Below, piece after piece: positions 14,328-16,687 of a stretch of DNA of 64,000 nucleotides. How positions within the stretch are numbered: the first letter of the stretch is position 1; each line of letters starts with the position of its first letter. Under the pieces are notes generated by a model. The model saw only the letters and a program-made list of their open reading frames with translations. It was not told where the DNA came from and ran no database searches. The DNA is from Rhizohabitans arisaemae (GTDB taxonomy: Bacteria; Actinomycetota; Actinomycetes; Streptosporangiales; Streptosporangiaceae), in the NCBI RefSeq assembly GCF_025996515.1, contig NZ_BLRH01000060.1, positions 930,001 through 994,000 of the forward strand, read 5' to 3'. The translations under genes and the position numbers were made by a program.

Positions 14328-14510
14328 TCAGCGGGCGATGAACCTGCCGTCGATCGCGAGGGCCGCGCCGGTGACGAACGACGCCTTATCGCTGTGAAGG
14401 AACGCCACAAAGGGAGCGATCTCCTCGGGCCGGGCAATGCGGTTCACCGTGTGCAGCGAGGCGACGAACCGTTCGGCTTGCTCGCTGGTGACGAAAGACT
14501 GTTTCCACAC
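14328..14510 (-). pseudogene. C-terminal remnant of an SDR oxidoreductase
   Basis: The minus-strand reading ends with ARPEEIAPFVAFLHSD, then SFVTGAALAIDGRFIAR. This is the classic C-terminus of a short-chain dehydrogenase (RPEEIA... S.FVTG..l.vDGG), preceded by SEQAERFVASL. The Rossmann fold, catalytic Tyr-x3-Lys and everything else upstream are missing; the frame further upstream does not resemble an SDR. It is a decayed fragment left by a deletion or insertion next to the radical SAM islet. Confidence 0.7.
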
Positions 14511-14603
14511 GTTTCTGGTTGCGCATGGCGATCCCTCGACGACTGAGCGCATCCGCGAGACACTCAGCAAGAAAAGCGCACCCGCCGTGCAGGGAGGGAG
14601 CAC

Positions 14604-15515
14604 ATGGCCGCCATCAGGCTGCTCCAAGCCGAGATCACGGGGAAATGCCAGGCCAGGTGCGTGCATTGTTTCAACGACAGTGGCCCAAAGGGCTCGAACG
14701 GCACCATGACCGCAGACGATTGGCGACGGGTCTTCCGGCAGGCTGCAGACGTCGGAACCGAGGTGATCCAGATAGTCGGCGGCGAGCCGATGCTACATCC
14801 GGCTCTACCCGACCTCATCGCCCACGCTCTGAACCTCGGAGTCCGTGTCGAGGTCTATTCGAACTTGGTCTACGTGCCCTCACGTGTGTGGGACCTGCTC
14901 ACTCATCCGCGAATGAGTGTGGCGACCAGCTGGTACAGCGCTGACCCTGCCGAGCACAACCGAATCACCGGACGTCCCACGCATGCACGGATCAAAGCCA
15001 ACATTCTCGCGTTGGTAGCGCGGTCGGTGCCGCTGCGCGTCGGCGTGATCGACATCGATCCCCGGCAGAACGCCTCCCAGGCTCTGGAGGAGCTGCGGCG
15101 GCTCGGGGTCACCGATTGCGGTATCGATCGCGTTCGGCATCTGGGACGGGCGACCACGACGACTTCGCCGGACACCTCCCAGCTGTGCGGGCACTGCGGG
15201 CAGGGCATCGTCACCGTGCTGCCGTCCGGGGACGTGGTCCCGTGCCCGATGGGCCGCTGGCTGGTAGCCGGATCGGTGCACAGCAACAGCCTGGCAGACT
15301 TGATCGACCCGGTCACCGCACTGGCCCGGCACGAGATCCCGGCCGCGACCGGAGTAACGTGCAGGCCGCCGTGCGAACCGCAGTGCCACCCGGGACAAGA
15401 TCAGTGCGCGCCGGAGAAGGATGGCTGTGTGCCGACAAAGAACTGCAACCCGGCTCAACCATGCAAGCCCCGAAACCCTTGCCGACCGGACGTGACATGC
15501 CGCCCCACGCCATGA
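14604..15515 (+). CDS. Radical SAM enzyme with Cys-x-Pro repeat tail
   Basis: 303 aa. The radical SAM cluster motif is CQARCVHC (C15, C19, C22); GGEP at 59-62 is the SAM-amino-group motif. A SPASM/Twitch-like region binds at least one auxiliary cluster (QLCGHC at 193-198, then VPCPMG with C214). Residues 253-303 are striking: nine cysteines at 253, 257, 261, 268, 275, 281, 287, 293 and 299, every one followed by x-Pro, with a steady six-residue period at the end. The first cysteines may ligate an auxiliary cluster; the rest may be a metal-binding tail or a fused peptide substrate. GGGAGGGAG precedes ATG 14604. The next gene overlaps by four bases (ATGA), so the radical SAM enzyme and the methyltransferase are coupled. 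The substrate is unknown. Confidence 0.85.
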   Translation: MAAIRLLQAEITGKCQARCVHCFNDSGPKGSNGTMTADDWRRVFRQAADVGTEVIQIVGGEPMLHPALPDLIAHALNLGVRVEVYSNLVYVPSRVWDLLTHPRMSVATSWYSADPAEHNRITGRPTHARIKANILALVARSVPLRVGVIDIDPRQNASQALEELRRLGVTDCGIDRVRHLGRATTTTSPDTSQLCGHCGQGIVTVLPSGDVVPCPMGRWLVAGSVHSNSLADLIDPVTALARHEIPAATGVTCRPPCEPQCHPGQDQCAPEKDGCVPTKNCNPAQPCKPRNPCRPDVTCRPTP

Positions 15516-16687
15516 CCGTTCGCCACGTCGCACAGGCACGACGGCTGGCCAAAGCCGTCGCCCGGCGCGCCAAGCCGGATGTGCGTGAGCTGATCCGCCC
15601 CTGGCTGGCCGCTCTGACCGACGTGCCGCGCGAACTGTTCGTGCCCGATGTCGCCTGGGCTGACCCCAGGGATGGGCCGGGCCGCCGGATCGACCGGCTG
15701 ACCGATCTGGACGGCTGGCTGCACGCCGTCTACAACGACGGCTCGATCATCACCCAACGCGATGACGGGGCCACCGACCCGGGGGACCCGGCTGGACGGC
15801 CGTCGTGCTCGCTGTCGGCGCCGTCGATCAGCCTGCAGTTCCTGGCCCGGCTCGGCTTGCGCGGACACGAGAAGGTGCTGGAGATCGGCACGGGGACCGG
15901 CTGGACCACCGCGGCGCTGTGCTGGTGGCTGGGGGAGGACGCCCGTGTGATCAGCGTCGAGGTCGATGGAGCGCTCGCCCGGCAGGCCGCCAAGAGCCTG
16001 GCCGCCATCGGCTGCCATCCGACGGTGCTGACCGCCGACGGTGCGATCGGTTACCCCGGTGCCGCTCCGTACGACAGGGTGCATGTCACCTGCGGGGTGC
16101 GCACGGTGTCGTACGCCTGGATCGAGCAGACCCGGCCCGGCGGGATCGTCGTGCTGCCGTGGATGCCCTCGCCGGGCCGTTGGGGGGAGCAGCTTGTGCT
16201 GCGCGTGCTGGACGACGGGAGCGCCGTGGGCCGCTTCACCGGCGACTGCGGTTACATGATGCTGCGCGCTCAACGGGTGGGCGACTGGCCCGCCTACGGC
16301 GAGCCGATGGAGGAGTCGGTCACCCGGCTGGACCCCCGCACCGTCGACGACGCGCTGGCCGAAGGCCTGATGCCGGCGTTGGCCGTCCACACGCCGCATC
16401 TGGTGGTCACGACCACCGGCTGGGACCGCTACGACGGCGAAGACGCGTGGGTGATGCGGCTCCGCGAGGCAGGTGGCAGTGGCTGGGCATTGTGCGCGGC
16501 CATTCCCGGCAACGGCGACTACCCGGTGTTGCAGGGCGGGGGTGTACGCCTGTGGGACCAACTCCAGGCCACCTACATGGACTGGGCCCGCCGAGGCTGC
16601 CCGTCCCGCTCCCGCTACGGCATGACAGTGACGCCGGACGGCAAACAGCACGTGTGGCTGAATATCGACGAGGGGCGCTTACCTTGA
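15512..16687 (+). CDS. PIMT-like (protein-L-isoaspartate O-methyltransferase family) methyltransferase
   Basis: 391 aa. The SAM-binding motif I is VLEIGTGTGWTTAAL (E124-G130 core), preceded by SCSLSAPSISLQFL, which corresponds to the PIMT loop normally reading S.P...A.M. DRVHVTCGV follows as motif III. It is about 170 residues longer than housekeeping PIMT, with an N-terminal extension (RHVAQARRLAKAV) and a C-terminal domain, as in the PIMT homologues found in RiPP clusters that methylate Asp side chains to give succinimide or isoAsp. ATG 15512 overlaps the radical SAM stop; an in-frame ATG at 15497 also exists. It is probably a peptide-modifying partner of the radical SAM enzyme; this is inferred from family and linkage. 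Confidence 0.8.
   Translation: MTVRHVAQARRLAKAVARRAKPDVRELIRPWLAALTDVPRELFVPDVAWADPRDGPGRRIDRLTDLDGWLHAVYNDGSIITQRDDGATDPGDPAGRPSCSLSAPSISLQFLARLGLRGHEKVLEIGTGTGWTTAALCWWLGEDARVISVEVDGALARQAAKSLAAIGCHPTVLTADGAIGYPGAAPYDRVHVTCGVRTVSYAWIEQTRPGGIVVLPWMPSPGRWGEQLVLRVLDDGSAVGRFTGDCGYMMLRAQRVGDWPAYGEPMEESVTRLDPRTVDDALAEGLMPALAVHTPHLVVTTTGWDRYDGEDAWVMRLREAGGSGWALCAAIPGNGDYPVLQGGGVRLWDQLQATYMDWARRGCPSRSRYGMTVTPDGKQHVWLNIDEGRLP

Follow-up and report, generated by a model that had tools for sequence, protein, structure and literature searches.

Most PIMT-type methyltransferases known from RiPP pathways are described as needing a constrained substrate (PMC13001092, PMC10787088), and TxDGC is a core motif in the PIMT-modified lanthipeptides (PMC10787088). 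In the pamtides and imiditides, the PIMT has a C-terminal domain and a WxxxGxP motif, the latter reported for several RiPP-associated PIMTs (PMC13001092), and the Asp lies near Gly or Pro or between cysteines; these systems have a separate small precursor gene and no radical SAM (rSAM) enzyme is involved (PMC10787088, PMC13001092). In the type I pamtide arrangement, a tiny ORF overlaps the PIMT start (PMC10787088), and the type II pamtides need zinc, bound by four Cys, before the PIMT acts (PMC13001092). In addition, 249 two-gene clusters of an rSAM enzyme and a PAMT have been reported, for which the authors did not find neighbouring precursor or substrate genes (PMC10787088, 2023). The borosins of types I to III (OphMA) carry maturase and core in one chain, with the core at the C terminus, and their enzyme is a fungal backbone N-methyltransferase without a PIMT or kinase partner (PMC8429565, PMC11285071). 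The rSAM/SPASM RiPP maturases, among them SuiB, SkfB, PqqE and CteB, act on separate precursors, many via an RRE domain (PMC8326336).

We analysed a locus of Rhizohabitans arisaemae, within a stretch of 64,000 nucleotides (the window), in which an rSAM gene is followed by a PIMT gene (Table 1). Compared by description, the pair is almost certainly the same kind of locus as the orphan clusters of PMC10787088, which likewise consist of two genes, one for an rSAM enzyme and one for a PIMT/PAMT with a C-terminal domain; no substrate was found for those clusters, whereas here we propose that it is the rSAM enzyme's own tail. A maturase and a C-terminal core in one chain are proposed here as in the borosins, but on a radical SAM enzyme. 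The window rSAM has the fold and the first SPASM half in common with the SPASM maturases but differs from them in having no RRE match, only half a SPASM domain and an attached tail, and it is this tail, not the product of a separate small gene, that would correspond to a pamtide precursor.

Table 1. Features of the rSAM-PIMT locus (positions in the window) and displaced tails found in relatives (locus handles)
Feature	Position or locus	Strand	Basis
Radical SAM gene with C-terminal C-x-P tail	14604-15515	+	ATG start, 303 aa; Pfam Radical_SAM 7.8e-15
CxxxCxxC motif (C15, C19, C22), catalytic [4Fe-4S] cluster	14646-14669	+	Coordinates checked on sequence
SPASM domain, first half, CGxCG...GxxxPC (C195, C198, C214)	15186-15245	+	Pfam SPASM 20.1 bits
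Linker between core and tail, one predicted helix	15246-15359	+	Helix 230-244 in AlphaFold model
Tail of nine C-x-P units, residues 253-303, putative built-in core peptide	15360-15512	+	Cys-x-Pro count; pLDDT <50
Asp-Gly-Cys, residues 273-275, proposed PIMT target site	15420-15428	+	Motif kept in relatives; lanthipeptide analogy
PIMT/PAMT-type O-methyltransferase with C-terminal domain	15512-16687	+	Pfam PCMT 1.7e-25; alternative start 15497
GTGTG SAM-binding motif of PIMT	15887-15901	+	Sequence
WxxxGxP motif (WARRGCP) near PIMT end	16583-16603	+	Sequence
Displaced family tails	L014, L015, L029, L057, L091, L094, L134		Precursor scan

The original prediction, made from the sequence alone, had described a radical SAM enzyme with nine C-x-P units at residues 253-303, overlapping a PIMT-family gene by ATGA, and all three statements were borne out. 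The protein has both the CxxxCxxC motif and the radical SAM fold, its Pfam Radical_SAM match starting at residue 10, and the top Foldseek matches were SuiB, SkfB and PqqE, all of them RiPP maturases. The three Cys of the CxxxCxxC motif and the three of the SPASM half are invariant in an alignment of nine sequences. The Pfam SPASM match covers profile positions 1-43 of 67, scoring below the cut-off of 21.5 bits, and the full seven-cysteine SPASM pattern is lacking, the later Cys being those of the C-x-P units, whose number varies. No RRE (PqqD-like) domain was found among the five Pfam families matched by the protein (E up to 1), and a backbone N-methyltransferase domain of the borosin type is absent, Pfam giving Radical_SAM. 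Just 5′ of the gene, on the minus strand at 14330-14520, the sequence reads as the C-terminal end of a short-chain dehydrogenase (a family assigned by eye), which is probably a gene relic.

When the sequence was read again, the last 51 residues of the rSAM protein were found to hold nine Cys, each followed by x-Pro and spaced 4, 4, 7, 7, 6, 6, 6 and 6. Among 200,000 shuffles of the tail, none had nine C-x-P and two had eight. A six-frame scan of the whole window gave eight C-x-P in 45 residues for the tail frame and four for the next best frames, which look like GC-rich noise.

The PIMT frame is open from the ATG at 15497, and a second ATG, at 15512, lies across the rSAM stop codon. The PIMT is coupled to the rSAM gene itself, not to a small precursor gene as in the pamtides, and, judged from the gene layout, the tail occupies the place of the type I pamtide precursor ORF, with its 4-nt overlap with the PIMT. 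A search against TIGR04188, the methyltransferase of graspetide systems, matched residues 35-384 (1.6e-75) with 254.7 bits, under the cut-off of 380; even so, the protein combines a PIMT domain with the extra C-terminal domain and the WxxxGxP motif that mark a PAMT. This motif was present in all 15 window-like PIMTs and in 15 of the 62 PIMTs overall, and the looser WxxxGx(1-2)P in 53 of the 62. Because the C-terminal domain and WxxxGxP are both present, we take the window PIMT to be a full-length enzyme of the RiPP type.

The home genome has two paralogues of the rSAM enzyme, 42-45% identical to it, both of which end in a C-x-P tail and are followed by a PIMT gene. Within the order, 94 of 345 genomes had a match at E <= 1e-40; within the class, 30 of 394 did, and 13 of 60 relatives had matches at E <= 1e-30; by homology, the window rSAM belongs to a large actinobacterial family. 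We read 128 distinct loci, a set that leaves out nineteen weaker matches of the order and class searches. Six were excluded before grouping for having no recognisable full SPASM half (L015, L029, L030, L032, L033 and L092) and, of the 122 in which that half could be placed, another six were excluded before tail counts for having fewer than two C-x-P (L014, L057, L079, L091, L094 and L134), giving 116 relatives whose tail frame has two or more C-x-P.

In these 116 intact-tail relatives, 513 of the 537 Cys after the SPASM half stand in C-x-P, and the linker is 33-60 residues long (median 41). The original prediction had proposed looking for conservation and repeat-number variation in homologues, reasoning that the same Cys in constant number would make the tail just a SPASM variant. 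The tails proved to be kept, and they are not constant, with 2-12 C-x-P units after the core per relative (2-9 with a PIMT, 2-4 with the kinase referred to below as KIN, and 7-12 with U4 and an AAA ATPase). Farther afield, on our own count from translations, C-x-P accounted for four of four tail Cys in a plasmid homologue from Paraburkholderia, six of eight in one from Rhizobium and three of seven in one from Streptomyces NBC_01361. The first two (L146 and L147) are plasmid-borne in Proteobacteria, 31-37% identical, and end in C-x-P tails; a slight search saw no PIMT downstream of either.

Single loci showed further variation. In L049, the unit CDPSCAPASDSDICPPPA is tandemly duplicated and followed by a diverged third copy, resembling a multi-core precursor. 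In L029, the tail frame continues without a stop into the PIMT and the core lies in a different frame, which may reflect a gene fusion, gene decay or a misassembly. Genes read by eye as encoding XRE-type regulators and DUF397-like small proteins are found repeatedly upstream (for example, in L003, L035, L097 and L130), with an XRE-type gene nearby in 31 loci. No protease or exporter was seen in any of the neighbour groups that recur around the family operons.

The gene downstream of the rSAM gene in the 122 grouped loci was a PIMT in 64, the APH-like kinase KIN in 31, U4 with an AAA ATPase in 15, U4 alone in 3 and none that we recognised in 9. We call KIN and U4 APH-like from motifs seen by eye (H/Y-T-D-x-x-P-x-N ... 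V-D-W and H-G-D-L-H-W-x-N ... L-D-W, respectively) and from plasmid records in which NCBI labels such proteins "aminoglycoside phosphotransferase" or "phosphotransferase"; neither matched Pfam at E up to 0.1, save a chance GYF_2 match (0.095), and U4 had a marginal thiamine kinase match in NCBIfam (0.03). In the systems with the longest tails (7-12 C-x-P; L008, L041, L089, L098, L130 and others), the AAA ATPase (AAA_21) and U4 occur in either order.

The residues of the tail depend on the partner gene. A D[GSN] at most three residues ahead of a Cys was found in 55 of 62 PIMT-linked tails, where 500 shuffles that held the C-x-P frame fixed gave a mean of 17.5 and a maximum of 27; the corresponding figures were 13 of 30 for kinase-linked tails (shuffle mean, 8.8; maximum, 16) and 1 of 14 for tails with U4 and the AAA ATPase. 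S-x-C-x-P-[RK], on the other hand, was present in all 30 kinase-linked tails (shuffle mean, 1.0; maximum, 4) and in 1 of 62 PIMT-linked ones, as well as in two of the three U4-only tails, and its Ser was the seventh residue from the end in 29 of the 30. The pattern was retained in a set thinned in one random order to 35 tails at most 60% alike, in which 17 of 20 PIMT-linked tails and 1 of 15 others had the Asp motif, and all five kinase-linked tails and 2 of 30 others, both U4-only, had the Ser motif. Only three PIMT-linked tails lacked D[GSND] (L022, L039 and L105), one of which, L039, falls in the clade of the window and reads GGGGGC at the place of the GGGDGC of its relatives. D-G-(0-2 residues)-C occurred in 13 of the 15 tails paired with a window-like PIMT.

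We also searched for a separate precursor. All six frames of 132 loci (703 kb) were scanned for three or more C-x-P within 45 residues, the criterion to which the systematic search was confined. The scan found no separate C-x-P gene, in agreement with the original prediction, which had found no separate precursor nearby, and answering its question of whether homologues have a small ORF with the same repeats. Of the 53 matches, 7 were the family's own tail in a frame differing from that of the core (Table 1); because these tail frames had no convincing starts, they probably stem from frameshifts in draft assemblies or from gene decay. The other 46, judged by eye, look like GC-rich noise, and on this criterion a separate C-x-P precursor was rejected for these loci. 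Searched against the home genome, the 51-residue tail found only itself (next E, 0.066), but this search was insensitive, also missing the short tails of the two paralogues.

The tail is under protein-level constraint, distal units included. In 63 non-independent pairs with core identities of 72-99%, pooled dN/dS was 0.18 for tails and 0.24 for cores; dN and dS were each higher in the tail than in the core, and mean tail identity was slightly under core identity in every identity bin. A tail hypervariable like some RiPP cores was accordingly rejected. Structure prediction had been suggested as a way of seeing whether the tail folds over the active site; the AlphaFold model (9 sequences; mean pLDDT, 73.8) did not place it there, and residues 249-303, all below 50, are predicted to be disordered.

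Cores and tails appear to have been exchanged. In a tree of 121 cores with tails left out, for which the bootstrap had not settled, the kinase group formed one clade (100/99) and the PIMT partner needed 10 changes. L075 and L077 are identical at 23 of 24 tail positions and 329 of 394 PIMT positions but at only 104 of 210 core positions; the L075 core is nearer to that of L028, a U4 system (137/210; branch, 100/99). Similarly, the cores of L047 and L054 lie near L096 (branch, 98/90) and their tails and PIMTs near L050 and L051, with 144 of 213 core positions shared between L047 and L096 and 23 of 41 tail and 289 of 381 PIMT positions shared between L047 and L050. A third chimera-like case (L114, L131 and L133) has a weak branch (99/25). 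In all, two lineages with good branch support and a third with less have a tail and PIMT that match one lineage and a core that matches another. The window itself shares 37 of 51 tail positions but 100 of 214 core positions with L036. Across the 62 PIMT loci, with the core held fixed, tail similarity tracked that of the PIMT (partial r, 0.45; 0/2000 permutations); with the PIMT held fixed, it also tracked that of the core (partial r, 0.26; 0/2000). The tail and PIMT adjoin and may move together by linkage alone; the exchange therefore indicates that the tail is separable from the core and is not proof of function.

Taken together, we consider it about two-thirds probable that the gene pair is a minimal RiPP-like system whose precursor is the C-terminal tail of the rSAM enzyme, modified by that enzyme and its partner. 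We infer the role of the tail as substrate, the order of the steps, the type of crosslink and, if there is one, the later release of a peptide. The rSAM domain would act on the Cys of its own C-x-P tail, or of the tail of a second copy, most likely forming thioether or other crosslinks, and, being tethered to its substrate, would need no RRE. The PIMT would then methylate the Asp next to a Cys (Asp-Gly-Cys here), leading through an aspartimide to isoaspartate, and in the sister systems the APH-like kinase would replace the PIMT and phosphorylate the conserved tail Ser. The need of most known RiPP PIMTs for a constrained substrate fits a tail that is crosslinked or metal bound. The original prediction had offered either a built-in substrate or a metal-loading tail. 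We favour the built-in substrate because relatives carry anywhere from 2 to 12 units, tail residues change with the partner gene, tails have been swapped between cores and the scan gave no separate C-x-P gene. Also in its favour are the constraint on the tail, the lack of an RRE match, the RiPP-type PIMT, the maturases as closest folds of the rSAM enzyme and the candidate peptide genes seen beside relatives of both partners. The metal-loading tail survives in part, in that metal binding could assist the PIMT by analogy with zinc in the type II pamtides (PMC13001092).

Several observations stand against the tail as substrate: three PIMT-linked tails lack D[GSND], mean tail identity is slightly under that of the core, linkage alone might explain why tail and PIMT move together, the third chimera has a weak branch, the AlphaFold model does not bring the tail to the active site, no protease or exporter recurs and nine loci have no recognised partner. 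A further one is the position of its first Cys, a median of 41 residues past the last SPASM Cys. This is roughly the place of the second Cys group in a full SPASM domain, and the first tail Cys could be a cluster ligand. The tail might then be a variant SPASM or auxiliary-cluster domain, its first Cys completing an auxiliary [4Fe-4S] site with C195, C198 and C214, the others redundant and the true substrate encoded elsewhere. The match to only the first SPASM half and the fairly constant gap would suit such a domain, as would the at least two C-x-P of all 116 intact tails, though the set was defined by that number, and the C-x-P Cys kept by the distant Paraburkholderia and Rhizobium relatives. 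We nevertheless think it unlikely, as the units vary in number without fixed spacing, the full SPASM spacing is absent, cluster binding has no use for Asp and Ser motifs that depend on the partner, and the distal units are constrained as well.

A somewhat smaller chance attaches to a tail that is the substrate of the PIMT or kinase and not of the rSAM enzyme, with the Cys binding a metal such as zinc and so folding the tail for the PIMT, and the rSAM domain acting elsewhere or only carrying the tail. The partner-dependent motifs require only that the partner act on the tail, and the type II pamtides, which need four-Cys zinc before the PIMT (PMC13001092), offer a precedent; yet the rSAM domain is conserved whichever the partner, the solved structures nearest to it in fold are peptide maturases, and odd Cys numbers (3, 5, 7 and 9) are common. 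We find it very improbable that the tail, Cys and Pro rich and predicted to be disordered as it is, is just a flexible metal-loading, redox or protein-docking element while the partner enzymes act on other proteins, for this predicts neither Asp-Gly-Cys with the PIMT and Ser-x-Cys with the kinase nor the exchange of cores.

Extending the preferred reading, the tail as built-in substrate, to the whole family, we lean, with rather less assurance, towards self-modifying radical SAM enzymes, widespread in actinobacteria, in which the C-x-P tail serves as the RiPP core, the enzyme doubles as leader peptide and the tailoring enzymes (two PIMT lineages and two kinds of APH-like kinase) are exchanged with fitted tails. 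If true, this would be the first fused precursor-maturase of the rSAM world within the literature searched, and it would supply the substrate that was not found for the published rSAM-PAMT pairs (PMC10787088). In that literature, taken as articles open without subscription and without their supplements, we found nothing that describes such a C-x-P tail or its dependence on the partner, the kinase branch or an rSAM-precursor fusion. What is new is the tail as a candidate substrate; the gene pair (PMC10787088) and the fusion of maturase and core (borosins) were already known. Were the tail the substrate, genome mining for small precursor genes would have missed such systems by design, each system would be a two-gene construct testable in one expression experiment, the tethered substrate would be a convenient handle on substrate placement by radical SAM enzymes, and the kinase branch would predict phosphorylated relatives with a single conserved Ser.

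Candidate peptide genes also lie beside members of both partner families. Among 57 plasmid records with a PIMT match, four, from relatives outside the family, were inspected; in three, a tiny Gly/Asp-rich ORF overlaps the PIMT start by 4 nt, as in the type I pamtides, and in the fourth an unannotated ORF of this kind lies upstream. Of four kinase-homologue loci inspected, two have a separate small ORF and an rSAM gene ahead of the kinase, namely that of Streptomyces nigrescens, where the kinase is 39% identical, and that of Nonomuraea gerenzanensis, with a similar set; the other two do not. Finally, L159:1071-3262 and L161:887-3262 each encode an rSAM enzyme with a full C-terminal Cys set, a small ORF (55 aa in L159, ending ...GCGNDNPY, and ending ...CSSSDDQPY in L161) and an APH-like kinase, a cassette that is possibly another RiPP family with a kinase.
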